From: Gammaproteobacteria bacterium
GTDB lineage: Bacteria; Pseudomonadota; Gammaproteobacteria; UBA4575
Direction of reading: 5' to 3'
Assembly (NCBI GenBank): GCA_026710875.1
Contig: JAPOQE010000018.1
Span: 1-48,293 of the forward strand
DNA: 48,293 nucleotides
Shown: one piece after another, positions 163-34,422 of the stretch
Layout of the letters: each line of letters begins with the position of its first letter
Numbering within the stretch: the first letter of the stretch is position 1
Notes under the pieces: generated by a model
What the model saw: the letters and a program-made list of their open reading frames with translations, nothing else
The model's database searches: none
What the model was told of the DNA's origin: nothing
Program-made: the position numbers and the translations under genes

Positions 163-407
163 GGGGGCGACACAAGGGTTGGTTGACCCGGGCAGCGGCA
201 CCCTGGGGGACGGCGAACGCCCGGGAGGACTTTTCGGCGAAACGACTGCCCCACGTACGTGGCCGTGTCACTGCCCAGCGAAGCGCGGTAGTGACGCGGC
301 CACATATCTGTCCCGAATCCAGTCAGTACCGCATCTTTCGGACTCCGGGTCCGAGTGCCCCGCGAATTACGGCGTCGTAATGTTAGCCAATGATAAGAAG
401 ATTTTCC
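163..407. other. Left junction region without a gene; contains a large inverted repeat
   Basis: I see no convincing gene between the barrel-protein stop and the promoter of the recombinase leader. The stretch should contain the left boundary of the island. The only clear structure is the inverted repeat at 259-303, plus a 12-base palindrome at 251-262. Confidence 0.5.
259..303. repeat. Imperfect 17-bp inverted repeat with a short loop
   Basis: Arms at 259-275 (GTGGCCGTGTCACTGCC) and 287-303 are inverted repeats with two mismatched positions, separated by about 11 bases. There is no T-run after it, so it is not a standard intrinsic terminator. It lies between the chromosomal flank gene and the mobile module, so it could be a recombination or boundary site, or a terminator for the flank gene. 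Confidence 0.55.
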
Positions 408-435
408 GTGACAGGATTGCACTGAATGGTATACT
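408..435 (+). promoter_or_regulatory. Sigma-70 type promoter of the structured leader and recombinase
   Basis: The -35 like GTGACA is at 408-413, followed by a 16-base spacer and the -10 like TATACT at 430-435, preceded by TG at 427-428 (extended -10). The same TGnTATACT occurs at the matching place before the second module at 33012-33020. Transcription would start near 442-443, a few bases before the conserved leader sequence begins at 451. Confidence 0.6.
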
Positions 436-442
436 CACCGTA

Positions 443-983
443 ACGATTTTGTACCGAGGCCATGGCGGTATATCCATGGCAAAGAGGCACCTTCGGATCG
501 TGTAACCGGTGCATCAGCCGCAAGGCTGCGATCCATCTTCAATATCAGCCTGTATCGCTGTACTCGGCGCGCAGGTACTCGGAACCAGGCCCCCTGGGCT
601 CGGTCCTGATCTTTAATACCAGGCTTCCTGCCTGCAGGCACGTGCGGGGTATCCCTGCGCGCGTCATCCAAAACGCTGTGTGCACGGCACATCGCCCGGA
701 CATTTTGGTCAGGCGTTCGCTGTGCTGTACACCCGGCCATTTGTTTCAACCCCGTGGAGTGGATCCACGTAACTTCAAAGGAGGTGTAAATCCTATCGCC
801 CGTATATCGGGCATGTTGACTGTCGCAGGTCCGTCTTCCACAGAAGTCCTCCTGCGTGGCCTTGACTGAGGCCGATATAAGTCATTACGGGCGTCGTGTC
901 CCGTGAGCGTATTCGCGCAAGCGAACCTGTACCGCCAAGGCGGCCAGGGGCTCAGAAACACTCACCAGAAAGGAAAGACACGT
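443..983 (+). ncRNA. Long structured leader RNA upstream of the recombinase, copy 1
   Basis: About 540 nt without a credible gene but dense in hairpins. Hairpin 1: arms 459-465 and 474-480 around loop CGGTATAT. Hairpin 2: arms 487-491 and 508-512. Hairpin 3: CAGCC 515-519 and GGCTG 524-528 capping a GNRA loop GCAA. GGATCG at 495-500 in the hairpin 2 loop is complementary to CGATCC at 529-534, a likely pseudoknot. Further hairpins: 798-812, 887-904, 912-925 (loop GCAA again) and 932-943. The same order of elements, with compensating changes, occurs at 33028-33555 before the second recombinase. Established knowledge: a conserved RNA named int-alpA has been reported near integrase and alpA genes, and alpA follows here. 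Whether this matches that model, and where the RNA ends, I cannot determine. A structured single-stranded DNA role is an alternative. Confidence 0.6.
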
Positions 984-1850
984 ATGAAGACTTTGAACCA
1001 CAACCTGAAACAGCTCTGCCGAACCTGCCGGGAAGGCAGCTATGCCACGCAGAGGAACAGAGAGAGGATATTGACCCAGGCTGCCAAAGAGCTGCATGCG
1101 ATGGGCTACCGGAAGATGCAGGCCAAATCGCTCAAGCCGAAACACATCGAGGCCCTGGTCAAGCACTGGCAGGAAAGGGATCTGTCCATTGGAACCATAA
1201 AGAACCGGATGGCCACCCTGCGATGGTGGGCCGAGAAGGTCAACAAGCAGAACGTCATGGCCCGATCGAATGAATTCTATGGCATTCCGGACCGAAGGTT
1301 CGTCACCAACGAATCCAAAGCCAGAGATCTCACAGAAACCCAGCTTGACAGGGTAAAAGATGAACATGTGCGCATGAGTCTTGAACTCCAGAGAGCCTTT
1401 GGCCTGCGGCGCGAGGAGGCCATGAAGTTCCAGCCAAGCCATGCCGATAAAGGCGACCACATTCGACTGAAGGCCAGCTGGACGAAGGGCGGTAAGCCAC
1501 GAACGATTCCTGTTCGAACGGATACTCAGAGAGCTGTCCTGGACCGTGCACGGGCACTGGCCGGCTTCGGCTCACTGATCCCGCCCCATCGAAGCTACGT
1601 GCAGCAACTGAGGATCTACGAGGGCAATACCACGAGGGCCGGACTCTCGAGCCTGCACGGGCTGCGTCATGCGTATGCACAGGAGCGCTACGAGGAACTG
1701 ACCGGCTGGAAGTGTCCGGCCACCGGAGGGCCGGACCGCACGGCCTTGGGTCCGGAACAAAAGGAACTGGACCACCAGGCCCGGCTGATCATCAGCCAGG
1801 AGCTCGGGCATGAGAGAGAACAGATCACAGCAGCGTACCTGGGAAGGTAG
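984..1850 (+). CDS. Tyrosine recombinase (phage-type integrase), copy 1
   Basis: A 288-aa site-specific recombinase. Catalytic residues are visible in order: Arg142 in GLRREE, Lys168 or Lys171 in the WTKGGKPR beta-hairpin, His225 and Arg228 in HGLRH, His276 in ELGHE, and nucleophile Tyr285 close to the C-terminus (TAAYLGR). The first ~110 residues form a helical SAM-like DNA-binding region, as in the Phage_int_SAM_2/Integrase_1 type families. I chose the ATG at 984 because AAGGAAAG lies just upstream and because the second copy (33556) then has exactly the same length. A ~540-nt structured leader precedes it and alpA follows immediately, so int and alpA are probably one transcript. The catalytic set looks intact. 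Identity to the second copy is roughly 70 percent by eye, without gaps. Confidence 0.9.
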   Translation: MKTLNHNLKQLCRTCREGSYATQRNRERILTQAAKELHAMGYRKMQAKSLKPKHIEALVKHWQERDLSIGTIKNRMATLRWWAEKVNKQNVMARSNEFYGIPDRRFVTNESKARDLTETQLDRVKDEHVRMSLELQRAFGLRREEAMKFQPSHADKGDHIRLKASWTKGGKPRTIPVRTDTQRAVLDRARALAGFGSLIPPHRSYVQQLRIYEGNTTRAGLSSLHGLRHAYAQERYEELTGWKCPATGGPDRTALGPEQKELDHQARLIISQELGHEREQITAAYLGR

Positions 1851-1891: not shown

Positions 1892-2074
1892 ATGAACCAC
1901 AGGGTTGTAAGACTGAAGGATGTCCAGCGCATGACCGGACTCTCCCGCTCCACGATCTACGCCCAGATCGCCAAGGGCAATTTCCCGAAACAGATCAAGC
2001 TGACCGGGGCACGCTCGGTCGGCTGGCATGAAAGCGCGGTGATCCAGTGGATCGAATCCAGGCAGCAGACTTAA
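1892..2074 (+). CDS. alpA: AlpA-family small DNA-binding regulator
   Basis: A 60-aa protein with the MerR-like helix-turn-helix of the AlpA family: RLKDVQRMTGLSRSTIY forms the HTH and GWHESAVIQWIESR the wing and last helix. AlpA proteins control excision or expression of prophages and islands. The ATG at 1892 has GAGGA eight bases upstream and gives the usual family N-terminus; upstream in-frame starts (GTG 1853, ATG 1877) have weaker sites. It lies 41 bases after the recombinase stop, so the two are likely co-transcribed. It probably acts as the excision or regulatory factor of this module. The second recombinase module has no alpA after it. Confidence 0.85.
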   Translation: MNHRVVRLKDVQRMTGLSRSTIYAQIAKGNFPKQIKLTGARSVGWHESAVIQWIESRQQT

Positions 2075-2230: not shown

Positions 2231-3457
2231 TCATCTTTCCTGTTGCTTTCTTATGTGATCAATGAACTCACGAATGTCCATCAACCACATTTGCTGGACA
2301 TTCGTGTAGGTGCTATGTAACTCACTCGGCAAGACCAACTGAACCTCGTTGGCCTGCATTTCATTTGTCTGGTTTTCGCTTATCCCCGGCTCAAGTGTCA
2401 AAAGATGCTTTGCCGATATCCTGGCTGCTTCTGACAGAACCTGACGCCATCTGTCCTTGCAGGTTGACTTGACACCAAGCATGGAAAGACACGCTTCCGG
2501 AAAGTTCCTGTCATGGTATTCAGTGGCACCGGGGAAAAGGAAGTCAGGCCTTGAGTTGTGTTCCGTAACTGCCTGCCGTTGATATTTCAATTCGCAGATA
2601 CGAAAGATTTCTCCAAGATGATGCTCAAGGGCATATCCGGCGCGTGCCTTTCTTCTGTTCTGTACACTGAGGGAGAAGCTGATAAACCCGTCCACATCAG
2701 CAACCTCACCGGACCAGAACCCGTCTCTCAAACGCTGGGCTACTGCATGGTGCTCCATACGGCGAAACAGCATTTCCTCATGACCCATCCATGCAAGCAG
2801 GGCGGTATCAGGGTCATCCCGCGGATCGATATCAGGGAGTGTATTTCGGGCAAAACCGGAAAATTCAGCAGTCGTTGGAAAAACTCCCTTGAAGTGTTCG
2901 AGCAACCCATCCAGCCGGTCAGCTTCTGGTTCCTCAATTTCTATATCCAGCTCTTTCAGAATAAACCGTGCAGCAAAGCCTACCTGCTGATCATCGCCAT
3001 TTTCCAAGTCCTGGTAAGTGAAGCCTGCGCCTATCTCCAGAGCTGAAAGACCAAAAAGCCATGCAAGACGATTTTCTTCACCGCTTCCTCTGGAGACCAC
3101 AATGATCATCAGTTCGTCGGATGGCCGTTTTGCAATTATGAGTAGATCCTCCTCACTGGCACGTTCCATCACAGGGTTACCTCTGAAGTAAAGCCTGTAT
3201 TCAGCAGCACGGTTCGGATTCTGTTCGCGTGCGTCATACCACGTAACAGATGAATCTTCGGAGAACCCCTCATTTTCATCACCCAGCCAGACAAACCGGG
3301 TCGGCCTGTCTGTCTGCCTTTCCAGGCCCAGCAGTGTTTTCAGCGGTTCGACACCATTGAACTCATGCTGGTTAGATCGTTCAGGATGGGCTTCCACAGC
3401 ACTCAGCCGTTTTGCAATCACACCCGTAAAGTATTCAGATAGGTACCCTTTTCTCAC
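2231..3457 (-). CDS. EcoRII-like type IIE restriction endonuclease
   Basis: A 408-aa protein, close to the ~400-aa length of EcoRII. The C-terminal half carries the PD-(D/E)XK fold of the EcoRII-C family: Pro304-Asp305 in SRPDFLF, then Lys330 in LGVKSTCKDRW, followed by the conserved region KHLLTLEPGISENQ. The N-terminal ~180 residues would be the effector-binding, autoinhibitory domain. EcoRII enzymes cut before CCWGG and need two sites. It is the last gene of a minus-strand operon with a Dcm/M.EcoRII-like methyltransferase and Vsr. Its start overlaps the vsr stop by four bases (ATGA type), so translation is coupled. CCWGG specificity is inferred from the enzyme pair. It looks full length. 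Confidence 0.85.
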   Translation of the reverse strand: MRKGYLSEYFTGVIAKRLSAVEAHPERSNQHEFNGVEPLKTLLGLERQTDRPTRFVWLGDENEGFSEDSSVTWYDAREQNPNRAAEYRLYFRGNPVMERASEEDLLIIAKRPSDELMIIVVSRGSGEENRLAWLFGLSALEIGAGFTYQDLENGDDQQVGFAARFILKELDIEIEEPEADRLDGLLEHFKGVFPTTAEFSGFARNTLPDIDPRDDPDTALLAWMGHEEMLFRRMEHHAVAQRLRDGFWSGEVADVDGFISFSLSVQNRRKARAGYALEHHLGEIFRICELKYQRQAVTEHNSRPDFLFPGATEYHDRNFPEACLSMLGVKSTCKDRWRQVLSEAARISAKHLLTLEPGISENQTNEMQANEVQLVLPSELHSTYTNVQQMWLMDIREFIDHIRKQQER

Positions 3458-3936
3458 TTCTGTCCATCCTTTTTATTTCCCTCCCTAGTGCCCTCAATCC
3501 CGAGGTTCTCCTGTCTGGAACGCAACCATTTTTCTGTCTTGTCAATAACCCTGTCCGGGTCCAGTCTCGTCTTTCCTTTCAGGGCACATTCATGAATTAC
3601 ACCAACACGCCAGCCCTGCTTCTCGAGCGCCTGTCGGGTTTCCTTGTCCTTCTCCCTGTTGCGGGTGATCTTCCTGTGCCAGAACTCCTGGCGGGTAGAG
3701 GGCCATTTGAACAAATGGCAGTCGTGCCCATGCCAGAAGCAGCCGTTCACAAGAATGACAGCCCGGTATTTCGGAAACGACATATCCGGTTTTCCAGGGA
3801 GCTTGCTGTCATGGAGCCGGTACCGGAATCCTCTCGCATGCAGGGCCTTGCGGATGAAAAGCTCAGGCTTCGTATCCTTTCCCCGGATACCGGCCATCAT
3901 GCGGCTGCGGGTCTCCGGCGAAACAATATCAGGCAC
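3454..3936 (-). CDS. vsr: Very short patch repair (Vsr) DNA mismatch endonuclease
   Basis: A 160-aa protein of typical Vsr length. Motifs seen: SRMMAGIRGKDTKPE near the N-terminus, LPGKPDMSF with the catalytic Asp, and the zinc and active-site region GCFWHGHDC followed by WHRKITRNREKD. Vsr nicks 5' of the T in T:G mismatches that arise when 5-methylcytosine deaminates in the Dcm/EcoRII context. It therefore protects the cell from mutations caused by the neighbouring methyltransferase. It overlaps the methyltransferase stop by eight bases and the restriction gene start by four, so the three genes form one transcript. Confidence 0.92.
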   Translation of the reverse strand: MPDIVSPETRSRMMAGIRGKDTKPELFIRKALHARGFRYRLHDSKLPGKPDMSFPKYRAVILVNGCFWHGHDCHLFKWPSTRQEFWHRKITRNREKDKETRQALEKQGWRVGVIHECALKGKTRLDPDRVIDKTEKWLRSRQENLGIEGTREGNKKDGQK

Positions 3937-5230
3937 TGGCTACCTGCAACTCCTCTTCCATGGGCACAAATTCCAGCTCAAGTGCAGCCTGTTTCTCGTC
4001 GTTTTCCATGACGGTAAGAATATGGGGAAGCATGAACCGGGCAACTGTTTCCACAACCGGCACCACCACAGCATTGCCAAACTGCCTGTAGGCCTGGGTA
4101 TCGGAAACCGGAATTTCGAAACGCGGTCTGCCGGGACCGTCAAAGCCCATCAGACGGGCACATTCCCGGGGTGTCAGGCGACGGGGTCTTTTGCCGTGTT
4201 GACGGACCAGAATCTCTGATCCATCCTTGTAGTAGCGTGCGGACAGGGTTCGGGATGTATCCTCAGGACCGACAAGGCCAAAACCGAATCCGTTTCCCCG
4301 TGCCTTGTGCTTGGCTGCATAGTTTTCCAGATAGCTCCACAGTTTTTCTGTGAGGGTATATTTGGAATCAATCTTTCCATCCGGTGCATGCGTGTAGGGT
4401 AGCTCTTCCGGCTCGGAGCCATCCTGCGGGTGCAGGATCGTGCGCATCACAGGGCCATCAGCAGGATCCGGTATCTCAAGCTTGCTGAAATCAAAATCGG
4501 TATTTTCCCGAAAGCCGGCGATAAAAATCCGTTCCCGGTTTTGCGGCACAAACCCCTTGGCATTGATCACTCGCCACTCGATATGGTAACCAAGCTCTTC
4601 CTGCAGGGTTTTCCTGATCACACGGAATGTGTTCCCCCCGTCATGGCTGACAAGGTTCTTTACATTCTCAAGCAAAAAGGCAGCCGGGCGGTGATGCGCA
4701 ATGATACGGGCAGTGTCAAAAAACAGCGTGCCCTGGGTGTCACAGGCAAAGCCGTGCTTCATCCCCAGCGCATTCTTTTTTGAAACGCCGGCAATGGAAA
4801 AGGGCTGGCAGGGAAAACCGGCCAAGAGCACATCATGTGCAGGAATCTCTTCCTCTGCTATGGCTGTAATATCTCCCTCTACGGGGTGGTCACATGGAAA
4901 GTTCGCTTGATAGGTTGTCCGGCATGGCGGGTCCCACTCACTTGTAAAGATGCACCGTCCTCCGATGGATTCAAATCCGATCCGGAATCCACCGATACCT
5001 GCAAACAAGTCGATAAACGTGAACAAGGGTGTTTCTGTTGGGCGGTACTGCCCGTTGATCCAGGCCTGCCTTGAGAGCCAGTCGGTTACCGTCTTCTTCG
5101 GAGTAGTTTCTCCTGACCGCCAGCGGTAGATCGTCCTGATGTTGTAGCCAGTCCTTGAAGCAATCTCTTTTTTGGATAATCCGGATCTCTCAATAAGTCT
5201 GGAGATTTCCGACTGCCTAGCCACCAGCAT
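3929..5230 (-). CDS. DNA (cytosine-5) methyltransferase, Dcm/M.EcoRII type
   Basis: A 433-aa C5 methyltransferase. Motif I is DLFAGIGGF (~74-82), motif IV is GFPCQPFS with catalytic Cys141, motif VI is ENVKNL, motif VIII is PQNRERIF, and motif X is QFGNAVVVP. The stretch AGVSKKNALG after motif IV is closely like Dcm and M.EcoRII, which methylate the inner C of CCWGG. Residues ~17-38 (LSKKEIASRTGYNIRTIYRW) form a helix-turn-helix. In M.EcoRII the N-terminal extension represses its own promoter, and an inverted repeat fitting such an operator lies upstream at 5279-5299. It is the first gene of the M-vsr-R operon, so modification is made before restriction. Confidence 0.93.
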   Translation of the reverse strand: MLVARQSEISRLIERSGLSKKEIASRTGYNIRTIYRWRSGETTPKKTVTDWLSRQAWINGQYRPTETPLFTFIDLFAGIGGFRIGFESIGGRCIFTSEWDPPCRTTYQANFPCDHPVEGDITAIAEEEIPAHDVLLAGFPCQPFSIAGVSKKNALGMKHGFACDTQGTLFFDTARIIAHHRPAAFLLENVKNLVSHDGGNTFRVIRKTLQEELGYHIEWRVINAKGFVPQNRERIFIAGFRENTDFDFSKLEIPDPADGPVMRTILHPQDGSEPEELPYTHAPDGKIDSKYTLTEKLWSYLENYAAKHKARGNGFGFGLVGPEDTSRTLSARYYKDGSEILVRQHGKRPRRLTPRECARLMGFDGPGRPRFEIPVSDTQAYRQFGNAVVVPVVETVARFMLPHILTVMENDEKQAALELEFVPMEEELQVASA

Positions 5231-5270
5231 CTCTGATCCTCTGGGTCAATTTTTGACAGAATGACATAAA

Positions 5271-5312
5271 GAGTCAGTAAATACAACTGACCTGTATTTG
5301 TACATGAGTCAG
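5271..5312 (-). promoter_or_regulatory. Likely operator of the restriction-modification operon
   Basis: A perfect 7-bp inverted repeat, AAATACA at 5279-5285 and TGTATTT at 5293-5299, is separated by seven bases. It is flanked by two direct copies of GAGTCAG at 5271-5277 and 5306-5312. It lies 41-82 bases upstream of the methyltransferase start, where the promoter is expected. I infer that the N-terminal helix-turn-helix of the methyltransferase binds here. Confidence 0.5.
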
Positions 5313-5827
5313 ATTCTGCCCAGAAAACCGGCAAACTGAATTGTCAAAATAGTACAGATCAGTAACCACATGGTTTTCTCCTAATCCAGAAAACTTGGGT
5401 AGCTAGTTAGTTGCCCCAAAAGCAGGTTTGTGCGTCTTGAATCTCTCGATTTCACTTGTGAACATCCCCACAATTAATTTAAGCCTTAGTTTTTCCAAAT
5501 CGCACGCCATATCCACCTGTTTGGCGAACCCTAGCGACCTGCACCACGCTTGGACCTTTCAATTTTTAGGCTGTAGGTAACCTGCTAGTCTGTCGCGGCA
5601 AAAAAATCGATAATGATGGCAGATGCATGACAGTCCGCTTTCTATTATGGGGCGATTCAGGTACATCTTGTAGGTCGCGGTAAAACCGAAGTCAGCGCAT
5701 CCGCGAGTTTGTCTGTCAATCCTAACTTTTGATTAGGCTTTAAAAATGTTTAAGCAAAGGAAACATCTTCACAAATTGATCCAGATATCGCTTTGCTATG
5801 TTAGCCATCACTTTAAAGCCAATGTCC
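5313..5827. other. Intergenic region, nothing recognised
   Basis: About 515 AT-rich bases between the start of the restriction-modification operon and the end of the receiver-protein operon (both minus strand). I see no gene with a good start site and codon pattern, and no clear terminator. Confidence 0.4.
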
Positions 5828-7771
5828 TTATTTAGATTTACGCCTCAGCCATTCGTATTCTTCTAGCCCTATACTTCCCTGACGCCCTGACAATTGATCA
5901 CATAGTTTTTGTGCTAGGAAATCTTTCATGTCGGCAATCCATTCGAAACATAGTCCGCCATATTTAAAAACCCATACACCATCCTCTTTTACCGCTTCGA
6001 TGTAATCTGATGCAGCAGGCTCAAATTCCAACATGGTTTGACGGTATGGAAACGGATAAAGTAATAATCTAATATTTTTTGGGTTCTCGTTGGGAGTCAT
6101 TCGGCTTTTTATGACCAGACACTGTCTTGGGCTCGCTGAAATTCCAGCTGATGTCATGGTTAAGAATGGAAATGCCCTTAATTGCTTTATTCTTACACCG
6201 TCGCATCGAGGTTGAATACAGAGCAAGAAGTCTTTGTTATATGATCCATCATCATTAATTTTCCGGATAATTGAGCCTTGCCCCAGTTTTGGCGACCAGC
6301 ATTCCGGTAAATTCCGCGCCCCGTATTGCTCCCTTTTTAGCGTGGCCAATCGCGAAAAATCATGGTCAATTCGATTTCCCATGTTCTGGTTCTTAGAAAA
6401 AACAGCGGTAAGGTCATCAAAATTTAGCAAGGGTGCTTTAATATTCTTATGTAAATCTTCCAAATTTCCAGTCTTGATCAATTTTCTAAGTGTTGTTTTA
6501 GATAGTTTCCTAGGGATATTTTTGTGTTTAAAATTCACCCCTTGTTTCCAGGCATCATCGACCCACCGGTTTGCAATAGACTTTCTTACTTTTTGGAATG
6601 CGTCATCGCCCTTTGTTACCAGATCAAATGCTTCCTTTCGAAAAACGGATATATATTTTTTCAACTGAAATGCCTCTTGATCTTTTAGTTGATCCGCAAT
6701 CCAGTCTTTGTGAGCTTTTACATCAGCATGATTTTGACCAATCTGGTTTAAGGATAAAATTGACCTGAGTTCGCTGGCGACTAAATCTAAAACGAACTCT
6801 TCCGAATCCTGCGGATTAGGTAGAAGGCACCGATGACTTACCAATGCTGGATCTAAATCAGAACTGAATGTAGAGAGAAGATGATGGGTCGCATCTCGAA
6901 TTGAGGCAATGGAATGGAGTGCAATAGACGGTAAGAGCCCACGATTGAGTTTCACAAATTCTTTAATCAGACGAGCTGGAAGGTTCTCCTCAGAAACAGT
7001 GGTCTCGCTATTAGGTTCGGTGAATTTCGTACTCTTATTTAAAAATACAATGCGGGTTGTCTTGTTACTAAGAGATAAACTTGGTTTGTCTGGTTTAAAC
7101 TTTCCAGCAATGTAGTTGACCTCACCAACATCAGCGACTACATCATCATAAATGCCTTCTAAATTTGCCAATGCGGTATAAATTACGATTAGTCTTTGCC
7201 GACCTTTTATGGTGTCATCATCATTCAGGATGGTCTTGATTATTTCGCGAGCTTTCTGGCTCCCTTTAACGCCGTCCTTTTCTCCATCAAGTTCCCAGTC
7301 TAAAACGACGATATCAGCTGGACGTGCCATTTTTGCTGATAAGCTAATAACTGTGTGGCTTTTCTCATTATTAGCTTGGTTTTCTGATGTTGAAGAAATT
7401 TTGTAATCAGCTGGACGATAAATACTGCAAAGAATCTCTTCATCTGCAAATTTCTCGGTCAGAATCCAAGCACGAAGTATGTGTGTCCTGTCCAAATGAG
7501 GGTTTGCACTTGGATTTTCGTCAGAAGTCTCATTTGGAGTTCCATTCCTTGACCTAGTTGCACGATTTGATTGCTCATGGCTTAGACCAGTGACAGGTCT
7601 GCGACTGAGTTGTTTCTTTTTTAATGAAGCACGGTCTTCAGACATCCTCTGTTCGTTAGCCAATTCACCCTGATAAACCTCTGCTTGATCATCAATGACT
7701 ACCACCGACTGAAGAAAATGTTTTGCTGCATTTTCATAACGATCTAGAGATGTATTTTCAGAATAGGGCAT
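5828..7771 (-). CDS. Receiver-domain-like protein of a methyltransferase/GHKL system
   Basis: A 647-aa protein. The N-terminal part has the key positions of a response-regulator receiver: the acidic pair Asp27-Asp28 after a hydrophobic strand (SVVVIDD), a phosphoacceptor-like Asp158 at the end of DIVVLD, and Thr199 in LIVIYTA. About 120 residues separate the acidic pair from the phosphoacceptor, with a polar, probably disordered insert at ~33-95; a normal receiver has about 45. The remaining ~430 residues are not assignable. It lies 26 bases after the GHKL protein gene and is surely co-transcribed. I infer signal transfer from the GHKL protein to this one, with the C-terminal region as possible effector. 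Receiver-like domains in bacterial conflict systems have been described, but I cannot name the system. Confidence 0.7.
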   Translation of the reverse strand: MPYSENTSLDRYENAAKHFLQSVVVIDDQAEVYQGELANEQRMSEDRASLKKKQLSRRPVTGLSHEQSNRATRSRNGTPNETSDENPSANPHLDRTHILRAWILTEKFADEEILCSIYRPADYKISSTSENQANNEKSHTVISLSAKMARPADIVVLDWELDGEKDGVKGSQKAREIIKTILNDDDTIKGRQRLIVIYTALANLEGIYDDVVADVGEVNYIAGKFKPDKPSLSLSNKTTRIVFLNKSTKFTEPNSETTVSEENLPARLIKEFVKLNRGLLPSIALHSIASIRDATHHLLSTFSSDLDPALVSHRCLLPNPQDSEEFVLDLVASELRSILSLNQIGQNHADVKAHKDWIADQLKDQEAFQLKKYISVFRKEAFDLVTKGDDAFQKVRKSIANRWVDDAWKQGVNFKHKNIPRKLSKTTLRKLIKTGNLEDLHKNIKAPLLNFDDLTAVFSKNQNMGNRIDHDFSRLATLKREQYGARNLPECWSPKLGQGSIIRKINDDGSYNKDFLLCIQPRCDGVRIKQLRAFPFLTMTSAGISASPRQCLVIKSRMTPNENPKNIRLLLYPFPYRQTMLEFEPAASDYIEAVKEDGVWVFKYGGLCFEWIADMKDFLAQKLCDQLSGRQGSIGLEEYEWLRRKSK

Positions 7772-7797
7772 GAATCAATTACTATACTGCTGTGCAA

Positions 7798-10773
7798 TTA
7801 TTCTTTTTCTTCTTCATCTGGTTCTGGAAGGATTATTCGAAACGTTGGGTTATTTTGTTTACCTGCATTTTCCAGAACAATATCTGCACCATCTTTGGTT
7901 AGTGTCGTTTTTGAAATGTAGAGGCCCATCCCTCTGCCACCGTCCTTCTCTGAGTTCGCAAAGCCAAATATCCAATCCCTATTCTCCAACGGTATCCCAG
8001 GTCCCGTGTTAGTTACGGTAAAGCTATATTCATTAGCGTCAAGTAAGATTGATCTTTCCCCACTCCGGCGCGATACGATCCAATAAATTGCATTATCAAT
8101 TAAATTCACAAATGTCGGATAATAGGTAGAAGGGTAGGCCTCGATCAATTTTCGATCAAATTCACGTGTTGCAGACATCTTAATTTTATGACGTTGTAGT
8201 CGATCGCCAAAAATATGTTGGAGGTATCGACGGACCTCTTCCCCCACTATCGGAATCTTATGTCTCTGGAGACGTTTGTTTAACGGCGTGAATAATCCCA
8301 AATATCCGTCGAGATGCTCAAAACTTGCCCGTATGTCAGAATAAACATCAGCCAACTCCTCATCCAAATCAGCCCATTCCCCCAAACGCTGTATATTTTC
8401 TCGTACAGATCTGATAGTGGCACTAAACTCGTGCTGGATGATGCCAAGGGCGGTACCCACTTGTGCTAGCTCTGTGAAAAGGCCAAGTTGCTCTTTTGCG
8501 CCAAGATACTCGGCTTCTAAGGCTGCCTCCTCATCAGAAAGTGAGTCACCGGCTTTTATGGCCTCGACCATTGAATGAATGTGATTGATAACAGCTTCCA
8601 GATGATCCGTTTCTCTGTCTACCGTTCTCAAAATCTGTTGCTGAAGTTTTTCTTGAGTTTTTTTGATCTGATTTTCTGTTAGGTTCGTGGTGTCAATTTT
8701 TGCAAACTCTACCAGGGCACTGCTAATGGTTTCACTGACTTGTGAGATTCTTGAACTCGAGTCTTTTCTTACTGTCTCCACAAGTTCTTTGGCCTCCTTC
8801 AGAGCTTCGTGACCAGTGGATCTGGTTATCCTTATACTTTCGCTTTTTGTATCATTTATCGCTTTCCTTGCACGCCGTCTTCGATCAAGTGCTATGGTTT
8901 CCTTTCCTGCAACTTTTGTAATGGCCTTATCTATCCATGTTGATAATGGATGGAAAAGTATCTTCTCCATTTTTTCCATCTCGTCCTGGTAGGCATGCCA
9001 ATTGGCTTTGACTTTTTTCGACGTTGAAAAACCTCGGGGTTTTTTAACCATAAATTGACTGCGGAGTTCTTCAATTTTCTCCTTGGCAAATGACTCAAGC
9101 TTCAGAAGTTCGTGTGTGGCTTTTTCTGTATCATTCAGCTTTTCTATAGCATCCAATCGCTGTGTTATTTTAGAGATAATTTCTTCTGCTAATTCATCTG
9201 GCTTGCTGGACTGAACTCTTTCAAAAAAAGTTTTGAGAGAGCTTTCAAAAAATACTTTTCTGGCCTTAATCCGTTTTTCCCGTTTTTGGAGAAGCGATGC
9301 TCGGTGTTGCAGTTCCTCCTTGATCCTATTGTATTCGCCGCTTCGATCAGCTTCCTTTCGAAAAAACGTCTTTGCCAACTGCTTAAACAAATCTTCCATA
9401 ATATCGCGGAGTTGGCGGTAAGCAGCATTGGTAATGAAGCCCTCACGACCTGCTTTTTCCATCAAGTTACCATTAAACTCGGAGGACAATTCAATTGCTC
9501 CAAACATCCTTCTAAAAGAGAAAAACCAATCTTGTGCACTCTTTGTTCGCCGCCTTTCAATATTGAGAAAATCGTAGTCGGAATTTCCGTATGGAAGGAT
9601 ACGGATGCCATCTCGATAGATGTATAACCCTCCAATTTTGTTCAATTTTTCGCTTACGCGTGCAAATTCCTCTGGTGGAAGACGTGACTCATTCTTTAAA
9701 CCTTGGACATATGCAAATTTTACCGAGAATGGTCCGCAGGTTGTCTTTTTACCGTTGTTATATGGCCATTCAAAGGTAAATGTTTCTGGCTCGGCACCAT
9801 AAATTCTCAATGTCCCCGAGGACTGACCAAATTCGTCAATCTTGCCTTCAAAATGATGATCCGCATTTTCAAATTCCTCTGGAGTGAAGAATTCATGGTT
9901 ACCAATCAGGTCAATTTTTCGACCGTCCATTCTGTGATCCCGAAATGCAGTTTCAATAACGGGCGCTGGTCTATCAGGCATCATTGTATTTGAAAATCCG
10001 AGAAGCATTTTTTGCAACGGTGCAGCAACATCCTCTGAACCAATTTCATCAATGTCACGTTCCAAAATAGGGTCTGTTGGCATTACGTAGAAATGAGTGC
10101 CCTGACCTTGATTCCTTAGAGATGGCCCCTCCAAGATTTTATCCACTAATTCAGGATCAATTGAAAATGCATCCAGATTTTTGAGAATTGTGTTTGCATG
10201 TTTGGCAGGTATAAATTTCTCTAATGCTTGGACGTTATCAGCAACTTTCTTGGTTAACCTGCTAACGACAGTTTGATCTGGTAAAGTACCACCAAGTAGT
10301 GTTTCTATTGGAATAACAACACTATCTAAGTCCACACCTGGTACTTCGAATAGCCCCCAATGAATAAAACTAACTACTAAATCCTGTAGTCTTCCATTTC
10401 GTTTTGCACGAGAGAGAATTAGGACTTGACATCCAACTGTAGCAATTGCTAGTCGGCCAATCCCTTTTTCACCGAGTATGGCTCGGCGAATTGTATTTTT
10501 ACCTAGATAGCTTGGTAGTTTTTTTCTATTGGCGCCAACCTTGCTTTCTGTACCCAAAGTAAGCCAATTATTCTCAAATTCATCTCGTGTCATGCCGTAT
10601 CCGTCATCTCGAAGGACGAAAGTACCATCGGCACGGAAGTAATCGACCTCAACATGCGCTGCGTAAGCGTCATGGGCGTTCTTGAAAAGCTCATGAATTG
10701 CAGTTGGAATCCCTGCTATCTGTTGGCGCCCCAGCATATCAACTGCACGTGCCCGCACTCGTATTCTAGCCAT
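7798..10773 (-). CDS. Large protein with two GHKL-type ATPase domains
   Basis: About 990 aa. Counting from the alternative start at 10800, the N-terminal ATPase shows Glu37 and Asn41 in HELFKNAHDAY, the DDGYGM box at 65-70 and the glycine-rich GEKGIGRLA at 110-118, as in Hsp90/MutL/MORC proteins. A long charged coiled-coil follows (~470-770). The C-terminus is a second, histidine-kinase-like HATPase: LIDNAIYWI (N box), VTNTGPGI (G1), FANSEKDGGRGMGLYI (F and G2). A His in GIIQHEFSATIRSV sits where a dimerisation and phosphoacceptor helix would be. I prefer the ATG at 10773 because the conserved motif ARIRVRARAVDML starts there; neither start has a strong ribosome site. Its neighbours are a C5 methyltransferase upstream and a receiver-like protein downstream, so I infer a defence system using ATP-driven sensing or phosphotransfer. 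Confidence 0.8.
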   Translation of the reverse strand: MARIRVRARAVDMLGRQQIAGIPTAIHELFKNAHDAYAAHVEVDYFRADGTFVLRDDGYGMTRDEFENNWLTLGTESKVGANRKKLPSYLGKNTIRRAILGEKGIGRLAIATVGCQVLILSRAKRNGRLQDLVVSFIHWGLFEVPGVDLDSVVIPIETLLGGTLPDQTVVSRLTKKVADNVQALEKFIPAKHANTILKNLDAFSIDPELVDKILEGPSLRNQGQGTHFYVMPTDPILERDIDEIGSEDVAAPLQKMLLGFSNTMMPDRPAPVIETAFRDHRMDGRKIDLIGNHEFFTPEEFENADHHFEGKIDEFGQSSGTLRIYGAEPETFTFEWPYNNGKKTTCGPFSVKFAYVQGLKNESRLPPEEFARVSEKLNKIGGLYIYRDGIRILPYGNSDYDFLNIERRRTKSAQDWFFSFRRMFGAIELSSEFNGNLMEKAGREGFITNAAYRQLRDIMEDLFKQLAKTFFRKEADRSGEYNRIKEELQHRASLLQKREKRIKARKVFFESSLKTFFERVQSSKPDELAEEIISKITQRLDAIEKLNDTEKATHELLKLESFAKEKIEELRSQFMVKKPRGFSTSKKVKANWHAYQDEMEKMEKILFHPLSTWIDKAITKVAGKETIALDRRRRARKAINDTKSESIRITRSTGHEALKEAKELVETVRKDSSSRISQVSETISSALVEFAKIDTTNLTENQIKKTQEKLQQQILRTVDRETDHLEAVINHIHSMVEAIKAGDSLSDEEAALEAEYLGAKEQLGLFTELAQVGTALGIIQHEFSATIRSVRENIQRLGEWADLDEELADVYSDIRASFEHLDGYLGLFTPLNKRLQRHKIPIVGEEVRRYLQHIFGDRLQRHKIKMSATREFDRKLIEAYPSTYYPTFVNLIDNAIYWIVSRRSGERSILLDANEYSFTVTNTGPGIPLENRDWIFGFANSEKDGGRGMGLYISKTTLTKDGADIVLENAGKQNNPTFRIILPEPDEEEKE

Positions 10774-10853
10774 GCACTTTAGCCCAAGCCCTTTGAACAT
10801 TCATGGTTAGTACTATAACTAAAGTTCTTCAATATAAAGAGGAGTAGATCACG

Positions 10854-11888
10854 TTAATTTCTGACAAGAGCACGCTTGAGCGTTGGGGCGAGTGATTCAA
10901 TAAATGCTGGGGGAACAGCATTACCAATTTGTGTAGCTATCTGACTAGTATTCCCTTCGAACACGTAACTGTCCGGGAAAGTTTGAAGTCGGGCGGCCTC
11001 CCTGAGCGTGATTGCCCGATTTTGTGTCGGATGCATGTAGCGGCCCCGGGTAATATCTGTACACCCTGTTGTCAAAGTAGGAGCGACGCGATCCCACCAC
11101 ATACGACCATAGACATCGGGAAAACCCTTTACTCCTTTGTGGCATGCGAGCTCTAACTCGCTTGATAGAGAAAAACGATCTCCACCATTTTTTTTAATTT
11201 GGGACATTCTCCTTAATGCAATAGATCGGTGGTTACGTGCGAAATGAAGAGAGTCATCTCGATCTTTTTCGCCTGATGCCAATGGCGCTAGATTGCCGAT
11301 AGCCATCCGAACAGATTTCCTAAGCCTTCCAGGTGTCGTCGGCGCAGGAAGCTTGATGGAATATCCAGATTGGGTTGCAAACAGCACGCAACGCAATCGT
11401 CGTTGGGGAACGCCGTAATCTGCAAGATCAATGGTAGACGGGCTACTCAATTCATAGCCTATAGCCTTGAGTTTGTGTTGAAGGCTAACAAGGATTGCGG
11501 ACACTTCGACATTAGCTAGTCCAGGCACGTTCTCAAAAAATATAATCTTTGGCCTTAGAATCTTTGCAAACCGTGGAGCCTGCAATATTAGGTCTGCGCG
11601 TGAATCATCCCCACGATTTCTGTTCTGATTACTAAATGGCTGACAAGGCGAGCAAACAATGAGCAGGTCCAAGTCTGTTCCTTTTAATTGTTCCTGCCGG
11701 ATACTCTCCGGAGCTACCGCTCGAATATCCTCTAGATAGAGATGGACACCCTTATTGTTTCTGGTATAGGTCTTGCCTGCAAGCGAGTCATTATCTACAG
11801 CTGCAACGACCTTAAAGCGTTGATGTCTCAGCGCTGCAGTGACTCCGCCACAGCCGCTGAATAAGTCCACTACAGTTGGCCAGCGCAT
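10854..11888 (-). CDS. DNA (cytosine-5) methyltransferase of the GHKL/receiver system
   Basis: A 344-aa C5 methyltransferase. Motif I is VVDLFSGCGG, motif IV is SPCQPFS with catalytic Cys82, motif VI is FFENVPGL, motif VIII is GVPQRRLR (161-164 PQRR), and motif X is QIGNAVPPAF. The target-recognition region is ~200-280, and its specificity cannot be read from sequence. It differs clearly from the EcoRII-type enzyme at 3929-5230. It is first in a minus-strand operon, with the GHKL protein starting 80 bases downstream. There is no ordinary restriction enzyme next to it, so the GHKL and receiver proteins presumably supply restriction or signalling. Confidence 0.92.
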   Translation of the reverse strand: MRWPTVVDLFSGCGGVTAALRHQRFKVVAAVDNDSLAGKTYTRNNKGVHLYLEDIRAVAPESIRQEQLKGTDLDLLIVCSPCQPFSNQNRNRGDDSRADLILQAPRFAKILRPKIIFFENVPGLANVEVSAILVSLQHKLKAIGYELSSPSTIDLADYGVPQRRLRCVLFATQSGYSIKLPAPTTPGRLRKSVRMAIGNLAPLASGEKDRDDSLHFARNHRSIALRRMSQIKKNGGDRFSLSSELELACHKGVKGFPDVYGRMWWDRVAPTLTTGCTDITRGRYMHPTQNRAITLREAARLQTFPDSYVFEGNTSQIATQIGNAVPPAFIESLAPTLKRALVRN

Positions 11889-16879: not shown

Positions 16880-17203
16880 ACTTTGAATATTTCACTCAGT
16901 TTTGAAAAATACACAACTCGATATCGCCACTTTGCTGTAGCTGTAAATGAAAGCTTGGTAATATATCTGGCCTTCAACCTTCTCCGTTTCAACCAAATTG
17001 GTATGCATACCTTAGTTATAAATCCTTACCCTTGCGTGATCTACAATTTCTCTGGGATTGTCTCGCGATGGAAACTGCGGCTAGCATGGAGGTGCCGATG
17101 AGCAGAGAACTATTGAGTTATCCAAAGTTGTAACAAACATACAGTATCCCCAATTCGTAAATACATCGTCAGAATCTCAGTAACACTTACTTCTAGGTAG
17201 GTC
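16880..17203. other. Intergenic region between divergent genes, nothing recognised
   Basis: About 320 AT-rich bases between the start of the helD gene (minus) and the next plus-strand gene. Promoters for both must lie here. I do not see a convincing gene or repeat. Confidence 0.4.
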
Positions 17204-18127
17204 ATGAAAGTAAAGGTACCCGTAGATGAGCATGCATTTGATGAATTTATGCATGAAATTGATTGTGAACTTGCAGCGTCTGGTCACGATATTCCTGTGC
17301 GTCCGATAAGAGCCTTAGGTAGGGTTAGTGATCGTTTTGGAATATCTTTGTCGATTCCACAACCTCATCCTAGGGCGGATAAAATTTTTGTGCAAAATCG
17401 GTCACTCTCGGAAAGAATTCTTGGATGGTATAAGGATCAGTACGGTGAGCGACTCAAGGTGGATCATTCGCTTGGTAGGATGGTGCTCAAGCTCGATGAA
17501 GATGTTTGGACGCTGCGCTTTCCTCTGATTCTTGGGTCAGCCAAGTTTATTGTTTCCACTATGAAAATTAGAAACGACGATCATGTATCTCGGAATAGAC
17601 CAGTCCATTGCAACGTTGTCGAACTCATTGAAGGTATGACAGCTGCACGGATGCGAACGTTGTCTGATTCTCAGCTTGAGAATATTTTTGAACTATTCAG
17701 CCTTGGAATACGGGCATTTGCTATCCTTGAGGGCACTTCAGAGAACAAACTCATCTGGAGCGCCCGTGCAGATATCATGGCCACTACAACTCTTTTGACG
17801 TCTAGACCGCCCCCGTACGGAGAGTCCAAGTGGGCCTCGCTTCAGGCAGCTGAGAAGGTGATGAAGGCAATCATCGCACTTCAGGGTGTCAAATTTAGTC
17901 ACACACACAAGCTGAAAACTTTGGCTCAAGAGTTGAGTCAGGCAGGGATTCAAGGAGAATGGGCTCCATTTATAAAAGCCATTCAATGTTCACCTGGTAT
18001 CAGATATGGTGAGGTGTCGTGTAGTCAAGACGAAGCTATTACAGCTCATCATGCTTCTTTGGGATTAATTGTGGCGCTTGCTGATGTTAGTTCTGGGCTA
18101 CGGTCGAACCTAGCTTGGGGGTCGTAG
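17204..18127 (+). CDS. Unknown protein with a HEPN-like C-terminal region
   Basis: A 307-aa soluble protein. The N-terminal ~190 residues are not assignable. The C-terminal third (SKWASLQAAEKVMKAIIALQ, then HTHKLKTLAQEL) shows the two-helix pattern of HEPN proteins: an amphipathic helix with a Glu-Lys core followed by an H-x-L-x-x-L helix. No RNase motif R-x4-6-H is obvious. It stands alone, with ~320 bases before and ~350 after it, in the defence island. Function not known. Confidence 0.6.
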   Translation: MKVKVPVDEHAFDEFMHEIDCELAASGHDIPVRPIRALGRVSDRFGISLSIPQPHPRADKIFVQNRSLSERILGWYKDQYGERLKVDHSLGRMVLKLDEDVWTLRFPLILGSAKFIVSTMKIRNDDHVSRNRPVHCNVVELIEGMTAARMRTLSDSQLENIFELFSLGIRAFAILEGTSENKLIWSARADIMATTTLLTSRPPPYGESKWASLQAAEKVMKAIIALQGVKFSHTHKLKTLAQELSQAGIQGEWAPFIKAIQCSPGIRYGEVSCSQDEAITAHHASLGLIVALADVSSGLRSNLAWGS

Positions 18128-18475
18128 AGTATCTGACGTGTAATATGGCGAAATGATTGCGGATGTAGAATTGTATAGCAATTGAAATTAGCTGTATAAA
18201 GCACTGCATATCTGGTCACAGTATCCTTAGATTACAGGTTTGAGTCTTAACTGCTACATCAAATTTCTCTGCAGTATCCGCATGCTCCGGGTGCTAGGAA
18301 GTCTCGACTAGGTATATTCATGTTGATGGGGGATAGTGCCCCATGAGCAAATCGCATTACATAAATCTGTTTTTCAGTTCTGGATATCAAGTGCGCCAGC
18401 AACACGTAGCATGTAGGGGAAAGAGCACGAATACTAATCAAAGTGCAATAGGCACTAGAGGCATACAGAGCTTCT
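18128..18475. other. Intergenic region, nothing recognised
   Basis: About 350 bases between two plus-strand genes. No gene, clear terminator or repeat could be supported. Confidence 0.4.
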
Positions 18476-25379: not shown

Positions 25380-26627
25380 ATGGCATCCATCTTTGCTTGG
25401 CTCGATCATTCAGAAGGTGACCGTCGTAAAGCACTCGATGTCGTTGACCTGTTCCGTGAACAAGACACTCGGGATGAGCTTGGCATTGGAACAGTTAGGG
25501 ACGCGCTTGCAGATTCATTGTTCCCCGGAATCAGCACGATCCAGACAAGGGCCAAGTACCTGCTGTTTATTCCATGGATATATAAGGTTCTTGAAGCTGG
25601 CAAGACAAAATCGAGTCATGTGGCCAGACTGGCACGCCGGCATGAAATTGATCTGATCTACCAGTTACTCAAGTCGGACGATACGGACGGCGTAATCGGT
25701 AAGGATGCGAAAGCCGGTTTGCAAAGATTACCAAGCTCAGTGTATTGGGCGGGTCTCAGTGTTTTTGGTATCCGTCGATACCAGGGTTCGCTGGATCAGT
25801 ATCATCGGTCACTTGATGGATTCTCCCTGAGTCGACGTCAGATTCATGCCTCTGCCGAGGATGGCGTTGTCGAACTGTTTAAGCCGCAGACCAACTGGCA
25901 TGAGGGTTTGCCACCTGCACTGGACGGGTTCCCTGAAGGAGCTTCGCTTCATCTGAAGGTAGAAGAGGCTGAGTATCTTCATCAGCAGATAATGACAAAT
26001 GTACCTGGTACCCTGATCGCATTTCTGGTCGACCAGGGGGATTGGTGGGATGCAGTCAGTTTTCCTTGGCACCATCCACAAGTTGGTAAATGCGCAAACC
26101 ATGTGAAGGTGCAGCTGCATCATGCGGAACTCTTCTCGCTGGTGATGCTGGGGGCTGCTCTGCTCTATAACCTGATGCTGGCGGAAAAGCGGGCGTCGAG
26201 CCGCAATGATGGAGTAGGCTTGCCGGAGGGTCTTGTTGGTCATTATCGAAGTTTACTGGGCGATTGGTATGGAGAGGTCGAAGACAAACGCCGAACATTA
26301 GTCCAGTGGGTTGATTCCCGCTCTGATTTCTGGGAGATCATTCATCGTGTAAATCCGCGTATTCCAATTCCAACTGTCCATTTCATAAATACCTGGACAG
26401 ACCTTGCAGCTGGCACAGATGGAGTCGACACTCTCATAAGTGCACCTGCAGCTAGAGACCTCATTCATCATCGTGAGCGTCGACTGAAACTAACGCTGGC
26501 TCGCCTTGATAACCCCAGAGCGCTTGAGATGTGGAGCGGTGCTGCCGGTACACAGCAACTCACATATCGTTGGCAGCAAGCTCAGACCATTGTGCAGGAT
26601 ATTCTCCGTGGTCTGGGAAGGGGGTAG
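25380..26627 (+). CDS. DUF6361-like protein of a helicase/PLD module
   Basis: A 415-aa protein. Its N-terminus (FAWLDHSEGDRRKALDVVDLF ... DELGIGTVRDALAD ... TIQTRAKYLLFIPWIYK) matches what I know of the DUF6361 family, whose members are found next to PLD-like nucleases and helicases in defence loci. No catalytic motif can be named. It is followed after six bases by the PLD-like gene, and that one overlaps the helicase, so the three are one unit. The role is perhaps scaffold, recognition or specificity; this is inference. Confidence 0.7.
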   Translation: MASIFAWLDHSEGDRRKALDVVDLFREQDTRDELGIGTVRDALADSLFPGISTIQTRAKYLLFIPWIYKVLEAGKTKSSHVARLARRHEIDLIYQLLKSDDTDGVIGKDAKAGLQRLPSSVYWAGLSVFGIRRYQGSLDQYHRSLDGFSLSRRQIHASAEDGVVELFKPQTNWHEGLPPALDGFPEGASLHLKVEEAEYLHQQIMTNVPGTLIAFLVDQGDWWDAVSFPWHHPQVGKCANHVKVQLHHAELFSLVMLGAALLYNLMLAEKRASSRNDGVGLPEGLVGHYRSLLGDWYGEVEDKRRTLVQWVDSRSDFWEIIHRVNPRIPIPTVHFINTWTDLAAGTDGVDTLISAPAARDLIHHRERRLKLTLARLDNPRALEMWSGAAGTQQLTYRWQQAQTIVQDILRGLGRG

Positions 26628-26633
26628 GGGATA

Positions 26634-33020: not shown

Positions 33021-33027
33021 GGCCCCG

Positions 33028-33555
33028 CATTTGATTTAGTACCGAAGCCACTGCGGTATATCCGTGGCAATTAGGCACCTCCGGATCGTGTAACAGGTGC
33101 ACAGCGGCAACTCCGTCGATCCACCTTCAATGTCCCTCAGGGACTTAGGGCAAGTCTGTAACGGGCCTGTCCATCTTCAATACAGGCAACGCCTGTACCT
33201 ATTCACAACTCGCTTGTGAAGTTCTGCTATGCAGCTACGTGCTCAGTGCGCAAGTCTAACCTTTGAGGTTATGGCTGTGCTGTGTGCCTGGCCCGTATCT
33301 CAATCTGGCGGTAGGTATCCGCACAACGTAATAGAGGGGATGAGGTCGTTGTTAACGACTACCCTGATAAGGGCATCTGGACCTGTACAGGGGTCCATCT
33401 TCTACAGAAGGCAACCGGTATTGGTTTGACTGAGTCGTATACCAGTCGAAATGGGGGGTGGTATCCCGTAATCGTATGGCAGCAATGCAAACCAGTTGTC
33501 TGCTCCAGCGAGCAGGAAGACCCAGAAACACTCAACTGACAAGGAGAATACACGA
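33028..33555 (+). ncRNA. Long structured leader RNA upstream of the recombinase, copy 2
   Basis: This region aligns with 443-983 over its first ~95 bases and has nearly the same total length. Hairpin 1: arms 33047-33053 and 33062-33068 with the same loop CGGTATAT; a U-A pair of copy 1 is a C-G pair here. Hairpin 2: GCACCT 33075-33080 with AGGTGC 33095-33100. The pseudoknot partners are GGATCG 33083-33088 and CGATCC 33117-33122. Other stems include GTCCC-GGGAC and ACAGGC-GCCUGU (around 33133-33195), TTCACAA-TTGTGAA near 33205-33225, and CTGCTC-GAGCAG near 33500-33515. The downstream part has diverged strongly in sequence but is still rich in hairpins. No credible gene lies inside. It ends at the recombinase start codon. 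Confidence 0.6.
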
Positions 33556-34422
33556 ATGCGAAACTTAAACTACCAGTTGAAACAGATCTGCAAGCATTGG
33601 CGCGACGGCAGTTATGTCACGCAGAATAACAGGGAACGAATGTTGACCCAGATCGCCAACGAACTGCATGGCCTGGGCTACCATCATATGCGGGCGAATT
33701 CCTTAAGGCCCAAACACATCGAGGCCCTGGTCAACCATTGGCAAGACAAGGGTATTGCGATTGGAACGATCAAGAACCGCATGGCAGCACTGCGATGGTG
33801 GGCTGAGAAGATCAACAAACAGAATGTCGTTGCCCGATCCAACGATCACTACGGAATCCCGCACAGGTGCTTTGTCACAAATGAAAGCAAAGCCAAAGAC
33901 CTCACTCAAACCCAATTAAGCCAAGTCAAGGACGAATATGTACGGATAAGCCTGGAACTACAAAAAGCTTTTGGTCTCAGACGTGAGGAGGCGATAAAGT
34001 TCATACCGCACTACGCTGACAAGGGCGACCACATCCAGCTCAAGGGCAGCTGGACCAAGGGCGGCAAGCCCAGAACCATCCCAGTGCGAACAGAAGTTCA
34101 GAGAGAGATCCTTGAGAGGGCTAGAAGCCTGGCTGGCTTAGGATCCCTGATTCCGAGCCAGCGTAGTTACGTGAACCAGTTGAGGGTCTACGTAAGCTAT
34201 ATACGACAGGCCGGACTCTCCCAGCTCCACGGGCTGCGTCATGCGTATGCACAGGAACGCTATGAAGAACTGACAGGATGGAAGTGCCCGGTCACAGGAG
34301 GACCTGACAGCAAATCACTTGCTCCGAATCTGCGAAAAAGGGATCGGGAGGCGCGGCTGACCATCAGCCGGGAGCTGGGGCATGAAAGGGAACAGGTGAC
34401 GGCAGTTTATCTTGGGCGGTAA
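33556..34422 (+). CDS. Tyrosine recombinase (phage-type integrase), copy 2
   Basis: A 288-aa recombinase, gap-free homologue of the one at 984-1850. The same catalytic positions are kept: Arg142 in GLRREE, the WTKGGKPRT hairpin, HGLRH at 225-229, ELGHE with His276, and Tyr285 in TAVYLGR. The ATG at 33556 has AAGGAG just upstream and is preceded by the structured leader. Unlike copy 1, no alpA follows; the next gene is a DUF5677-like protein 197 bases downstream. It looks intact. The divergence from copy 1 suggests two separate element arrivals or an old duplication. Confidence 0.9.
   Translation: MRNLNYQLKQICKHWRDGSYVTQNNRERMLTQIANELHGLGYHHMRANSLRPKHIEALVNHWQDKGIAIGTIKNRMAALRWWAEKINKQNVVARSNDHYGIPHRCFVTNESKAKDLTQTQLSQVKDEYVRISLELQKAFGLRREEAIKFIPHYADKGDHIQLKGSWTKGGKPRTIPVRTEVQREILERARSLAGLGSLIPSQRSYVNQLRVYVSYIRQAGLSQLHGLRHAYAQERYEELTGWKCPVTGGPDSKSLAPNLRKRDREARLTISRELGHEREQVTAVYLGR

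Follow-up and report, generated by a model that had tools for sequence, protein, structure and literature searches.

The subject of this analysis is a stretch of 48,293 nucleotides from a gammaproteobacterium of the lineage UBA4575 (contig JAPOQE010000018.1; hereafter the window), part of a single-genome draft of 90% completeness, and in particular the leader that precedes a gene of the tyrosine-recombinase fold near its start. With a probability of roughly two in three, this leader is a structured RNA of approximately 530 nt that belongs to a mobilization module, in which an origin of transfer (oriT) hairpin is followed by the RNA and then by a gene for an atypical relaxase resembling MpsA of Salmonella genomic island 1 (SGI1). 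By analogy with the RNA encoded by SGI1, it probably helps mobile DNA islands to move between cells. The evidence documented here comprises a promoter, a conserved fold, a conserved neighbourhood, the homology of the gene to MpsA and the survival of the RNA beside the oriT-like hairpin at loci that lack the relaxase.

The original prediction, made from the letters of the window, had described a hairpin-rich leader with a pseudoknot upstream of a recombinase gene, starting at position 443 and transcribed from its own promoter, and this observation is confirmed. A sigma70-type promoter (GTGACA-16-TATACT) is present at 408-435 and places the predicted start of the transcript at approximately 441-443, in agreement with a start at 443. 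Among homologous loci the -10 element lies approximately 20-46 nt 5' of hairpin P1 (Table 1) in most cases. At the other end the conserved RNA stops near position 969 at AACACTCACC(AGA), immediately 5' of the ribosome-binding site. Both GNRA loops that had been pointed out (GCAA at 520-523 and 917-920) are present, and the two halves of the proposed pseudoknot, GGATCG (495-500) and CGATCC (529-534), are paired in every 5' domain sequence.

The RNA fold of the leader is more stable than those of shuffled sequences (z = -3.1, equalled by 0/100), while its reverse strand folds almost as well (z = -2.9). As the energies are similar for both strands, comparative evidence was required. RNAalifold gave a weak consensus on mixed and alphaproteobacterial alignments because distant rows misalign, and helices were therefore set by hand and then tested. 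The 3' domain was tested on 37 sequences in an alignment made without reference to structure. Here 90.7% of cells were paired, compared with 32-45% when partners were slid, both sides had changed in 27 of the 38 pairs, and the covariation score was reached by none of 500 shuffles. The G-U cells in this alignment, 15 of them at one pair, lie on the + strand, which favours that strand as the RNA. For the 5' domain, including the pseudoknot, 95.8% of cells were paired (14 distinct sequences).

Covariation was also assessed against a tree-aware null, in which substitutions were redistributed along a FastTree tree. In an alignment of 72 sequences, which was built by a covariance model and so leans towards the structure, the 13 top-scoring of 11,325 column pairs all belong to the structure, and 13 of the 33 structure pairs reached E<0.05 when these were tested alone (a two-set test). 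Smaller structure-blind alignments tested all-against-all had low power, with E<0.05 for 1/38 pairs and 1/21 pairs. In the structure-blind 3' domain the three top-scoring pairs are nevertheless structure pairs, and in the 5' domain the best of 4,371 column pairs is a pair of the pseudoknot. Comparative pairing and covariation thus bear out the earlier claim of a structured RNA, for which a search for covariation in homologous leaders had been proposed as the check; a conserved, covarying structure was found.

Among the upstream regions of homologous loci, leaders share the P1 hairpin (GGCCACT..AGTGGC), the motif AAAGGAGGTG and the 3' domain ending in GGTCAGAAACACTNACC. The pseudoknotted P2/P3 domain is common to the leaders of nearer relatives, and the number of middle hairpins varies. 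The closing helix Pe is re-paired between loci (TGAGC/GCTCA, TGACC/GGTCA and TGATC/GATCA), and the terminal motif lies at most 90 nt from the start codon in 70/82 loci, compared with 0/222 controls. A conserved small open reading frame (ORF) in the leader was considered and rejected, since by inspection the frames downstream of AAAGGAGGTG are not conserved.

Upstream of the promoter lies a second folded element, a hairpin at 259-303 that forms as DNA with z = -5.4. Its shape as DNA, a long stem with an offset inner mini-hairpin, is that of the SGI1 oriT hairpin (locus L102, 1100-1224 by the coordinates of the published work). The arm pattern GTC[ACT]CT..AG[AGT]GAC was found in 57 of the 76 loci with enough upstream sequence to be counted and in 6 of 222 control windows. 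The inner arms (GTCACT/AGTGAC) are conserved, the outer arms change together between loci, and the length of the loop varies while the arms stay paired. These features suggest that the hairpin is an oriT, and the order of oriT-like hairpin, RNA and gene is kept in most loci. Folded single-stranded DNA, one of the roles originally proposed for the leader, is probably involved, in the form of this separate upstream hairpin, which had been overlooked, and not of the leader. In its own genome the arm pattern has three matches, all at int/alpA modules, and the reversed control gives about the same number; on this count a repetitive extragenic palindrome-like repeat was rejected.

The gene downstream of the RNA had been taken for an ordinary recombinase, but it falls in the Pfam family of the atypical relaxase of SGI1. 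MpsA is a tyrosine-recombinase-like protein that is essential for SGI1 transfer and is probably the relaxase of that element (Kiss et al. 2019, PMC6414798). The mobilization region of SGI1 was represented by locus L102 (OR851053.1), which is recognised as such because the protein that it encodes is 321 residues long and has M32, R162 and Y319, in full agreement with PMC6414798; the gene is followed by a 99-residue MpsB-like ORF. The L102 entry is catalogued as a contig of a Salmonella phage. Over 171 amino acids the window protein and MpsA share 36% identity (E=1e-22), MpsA is itself a PF12835 protein, and across 25 members of the family, MpsA among them, R142, K168, H225, R228, H229, H276 and Y285 do not vary. 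The two thus share PF12835, the catalytic R, HxxRH and terminal Y, and an oriT or putative oriT hairpin upstream. They differ at the N-terminal domain, which is PF12834 in the window protein, and in the lack of an MpsB-like partner in the window. A role of the window gene in transfer is putative. MobK of pIGRK and TcpM of pCW3 also belong to the tyrosine-recombinase-like relaxases and have inverted repeats at oriT (PMC8152469), and no associated RNA has been reported for them; they are likened to the window gene by description and not by sequence.

An AlphaFold model of the gene product (pLDDT 88) matches tyrosine recombinases, the best match being the integron integrase IntI on attC (2a3v, TM-score approximately 0.5), while a sequence search of solved structures with the gene product gave no match. 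This structural likeness, the full catalytic set and the variable loop between paired arms, as in folded recombination sites, could also be explained if the gene encoded a site-specific recombinase acting on the folded hairpin in the manner of integron attC, with the RNA regulating or assisting recombination. This is improbable. The islands carry a separate phage-type integrase adjoining a tRNA gene, so that an integrase role for the MpsA-like gene is not required; the cargo carries no series of such hairpins, as their few matches in the genome indicate; and MpsA, the nearest relative to have been studied, serves transfer and has oriT as its hairpin (PMC6414798). On small plasmids the gene adjoins one for a VirD4-type coupling protein, and small ORFs without a family assignment lie beside it on plasmids. 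In the window it is followed by an AlpA-like gene that is part of the neighbouring P4-type integrase module, a module that also occurs in contig C120 without the relaxase.

A counterpart for the RNA of a mobilization module is found in sgm-sRNA, a self-encoded RNA of SGI1 (Nagy et al. 2021, PMC9299015); the part of it that carries the function is encoded between oriT and mpsA. It is needed for SGI1 mobilization and works in trans, and supplying MpsA and MpsB does not substitute for it. The authors of that study called the module unique and suggested that the RNA may help to assemble the transfer complex. The order of elements is the same in the window (hairpin 259-303, RNA 441-969, gene 984-1850) as in SGI1 (oriT, RNA, mpsA). 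Furthermore, CACTTACC is present in the SGI1 mobilization region and lies near the mapped 3' end of the functional core of sgm-sRNA, and the window RNA ends in the same motif. In contrast, the core of sgm-sRNA is shorter (approximately 280 nt), it has not been reported outside the SGI1 family and no consensus fold based on covariation is known for it. The promoter of the window RNA lies between the hairpin and the RNA and is conserved, whereas that of sgm-sRNA is situated upstream of oriT. By this analogy, which has good support, the window RNA would work as sgm-sRNA does, being made beside oriT and needed for mobilization but not for making the relaxase.

The RNA was found to precede the homologous gene in dozens of gammaproteobacterial and some betaproteobacterial loci (80 loci came from a protein search of genome contigs). 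A covariance model of the RNA 3' core, R1, has its match directly upstream of the gene at most loci, several of them outside its training set (L026, L065, L066, L062, L069 and L009), and also matches two plasmids (L098, E=6e-5; L096, E=2e-3). In a set of 369 genomes of the class, from collections with one genome per species, R1 gave 31 matches in 13 genomes, and a protein profile placed the gene family in 38 of the 369. The RNA lies directly upstream in 21/21 protein matches with E<=1e-124, and most of the more distant protein matches are without an R1 match. The RNA and the close clade of the gene travel together. The genome from which the window comes holds further copies, one of which was located by DNA search in the window at approximately 33,030-34,421; altogether the RNA is present three times in the window, one copy being decayed. 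No oriT hairpin was found upstream of the second copy (33026-33539). The decayed copy lies 5' of a NERD-domain ORF at 18476.

In Halieaceae a stretch of approximately 7.2-7.3 kb that contains the module and ends inside a tRNA-Arg gene is 99.7-100% identical across several genera (L042, L043, L045, L047, L048, L050, L085 and L086), and such near-identity indicates very recent spread. The layout recurs on alphaproteobacterial plasmids with a different RNA; there a hairpin (GCCCTGTCACTACCG..CGGTAGTGACAGGGC) is followed by approximately 450 nt and then by GGTCATTAAAACTTACC 5' of the gene. In the alphaproteobacterial leaders L074, L076 and L143-L149 an ATG follows shortly after AAAGGAG, and these leaders may encode a short peptide. 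A literature search that covered few subscription papers and preprints found no earlier description of the leader RNA.

The RNA is also found without the gene. When loci were retrieved by the RNA alone the relaxase adjoined it in 23 of 30. Loci without the relaxase retain the RNA together with the hairpin (L114, L120/L136 and L132/L133/L142) or the RNA without the hairpin (L121/L135); in L114, L120 and L121 approximately eight codons of the gene are left and cargo then follows. L132, L133 and L142 come from one genome and hold three diverged copies of the RNA, 80-93% identical over their shared parts. They retain the hairpin, P1, AAGGAGGTG and the 3' domain, with helices re-paired between copies, and no relaxase is present within approximately 8 kb on either side of two of the three. 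In L132/L137 an ORF 3' of the orphan RNA resembles, by eye, the FlhC-type transfer activators of SGI1/IncC elements. At L140 (G000 contig C100, 5750-8901) the RNA and a truncated relaxase gene are set apart by a group II intron-like maturase ORF.

These loci bear on the explanation that the RNA is a cis-regulatory 5' leader whose sole role is to control how the downstream relaxase/integrase gene is transcribed or translated. Transcription runs from the RNA into the gene, the end of the AACACTNACC motif is approximately 20 nt 5' of the start codon and AAAGGAGGTG could compete for ribosomes, all of which would suit such a leader. Retention of the RNA, mostly with the hairpin, at several loci that lack the gene makes a role limited to gene expression hard to explain, particularly as helices were re-paired between copies. 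The fold is, moreover, far bigger than a leader requires, and in SGI1 loss of the RNA is not rescued by supply of MpsAB (PMC9299015). A purely cis-acting leader is accordingly unlikely, although of the alternatives it deserves the most attention.

Another explanation, for which the chances are very slim, is that the RNA is a guide like the bridge RNA of IS110, pairing with donor or target DNA. In both cases a structured non-coding RNA precedes a gene for a recombinase, and the middle hairpins of the RNA are variable. The recombinases of IS110 are, however, of another fold (DEDD/IS110, compared with the tyrosine-recombinase fold here). Matches of the RNA to its own hairpin region were 7.6 compared with 7.7 for the RNAs of other elements in the sense direction, and 7.8 compared with 7.6 in antisense, and this lack of excess pairing makes a guide role there unlikely. 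The original prediction had also put forward int-alpA as a candidate, and recombinase and alpA genes do adjoin here as they do near that RNA. The leader has no Rfam match at the gathering threshold, yields nothing at E<=10 beyond hits to unrelated families that are at the level of chance, and has no match to an Rfam group I or group II intron; nor was there any Rfam match in 13 related loci. Membership of int-alpA, which is excluded as far as its Rfam covariance model goes, or of another known Rfam family is thus hardly credible.

Several observations weigh against the reading of the leader as the RNA of a mobilization module. R1 does not match the RNA region of L102 even with filters off, and any homology to sgm-sRNA is tentative, being argued from the shared location, the partner protein and the CACTNACC motif. 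In SGI1 transcription begins upstream of oriT, and sgm-sRNA comes from the 3' end of the longer transcript that results. The window has no MpsB counterpart and the AlpA-like gene stands in its place. There is a visible cause for the absence of the gene in L106 and L130, where an insertion sequence-like element interrupts it or a group II intron-like ORF sets it apart, and orphan RNAs could be recent remnants. Finally, the case rests on sequence analysis for every member of the family.

If the leader is nevertheless the RNA of a mobilization module, its function in transfer, its binding of protein and its action in trans or in cis may be sketched as follows. Protein binding is suggested by the fold, which is compact, has many helices and includes a pseudoknot, and the RNA would most likely bind the relaxase and/or the coupling protein of a helper element at oriT. 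It would in this way help the transfer complex to assemble on the oriT hairpin, perhaps as a scaffold of the relaxosome. Since the relaxase mRNA also begins with this RNA, the RNA may couple both roles. Of the three roles first proposed (a regulatory RNA, a trans-acting island RNA and folded single-stranded DNA), the trans-acting RNA fits best and the others fit less well. More tentatively, the RNA could be a physical part of the transfer-initiation complex, needed by the relaxase for use of the oriT hairpin or for docking of the coupling protein, so that the relaxosome would itself contain RNA.

Table 1. Features of the window that are discussed in the text.
Feature	Position	Strand	Remarks
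Putative oriT hairpin	259..303		Arms GTGGCCGTGTCACT (259-272) and AGTGACGCGGCCAC (290-303); inner GCGAAGC mini-hairpin
RNA promoter	408..435	+	GTGACA-16 nt-TATACT; sigma70-type, extended -10; 10/12 matches
Structured RNA	441..969	+	5' end inferred from promoter, 3' end from conservation
P1 hairpin	459..480	+	GCCATGG (459-465) with CCATGGC (474-480); 98.7% paired, 3 pairs double-changed
P2 stem	487..512	+	GCACC (487-491) with GGTGC (508-512); 100% paired
Pseudoknot	495..534	+	GGATCG (495-500) with CGATCC (529-534); paired in 14/14 distinct sequences, 3 pairs double-changed
P3 hairpin	515..528	+	GCAA tetraloop (520-523)
AAAGGAGGTG	777..786	+	Strong Shine-Dalgarno-like motif; no suitably spaced start codon downstream; near-invariant in alignment A1
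Pa hairpin	798..812	+	GCCCG/CGGGC; misaligned by MAFFT in Halieaceae rows
Pb helix	824..856	+	Inner hairpin 835-846; pairing test and covariation
Pc hairpin	859..872	+	Pairing test and covariation
Pd hairpin	889..902	+	GGG/CCC nearly invariant
Pe closing helix	904..954	+	TGAGC (904-908) with GCTCA (950-954); encloses Pf and Pg
Pf	912..925	+	GNRA loop 917-920; inside Pe
Pg	926..948	+	Inside Pe
Terminal motif AACACTCACC	957..966	+	Family form CACTNACC
MpsA-like gene, putative atypical relaxase	984..1850	+	Tyrosine-recombinase fold; PF12834 and PF12835
AlpA-like regulator/excisionase	1892..2074	+
Decayed third copy, RNA 3' domain	18257..18413	+	22.6 bits, E=1.5e-5
Second RNA copy	33026..33539	+	Partly diverged, 71 bits
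Second MpsA-like gene	33556..34422	+	72% identical to the first

Elsewhere in the window, defence cargo occupies 2231-11888 and 25380-28481 and includes an EcoRII-type endonuclease, Vsr, C5 methylases, a HEF_HK/Response_reg_2 pair and a ZacB match (E=2e-177). At 17176-17204 a sequence similar to the terminal motif of the RNA, CTCAGTAACACTTACTTC, abuts an ORF at 17204 with a weak HEPN match, and this is maybe the end of a module fused to cargo.

Sgm-sRNA has been described as confined to SGI1, with its mode of action left open, and it gains a general setting from a covarying family that occupies the corresponding position in many unrelated elements. That family supplies a defined fold and helices that can be tested. 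It also points to islands and plasmids that are likely to transfer by means of an RNA-dependent, tyrosine-recombinase-like relaxase, some of which are typed as ‘non-mobilizable’ by relaxase-based tools; in the window such modules carry anti-phage defence genes. If the more tentative reading, in which the RNA is a physical part of the transfer-initiation complex, is true, MpsA-type elements of gamma-, beta- and alphaproteobacteria would possess a relaxosome that contains RNA, with folds specific to each lineage.
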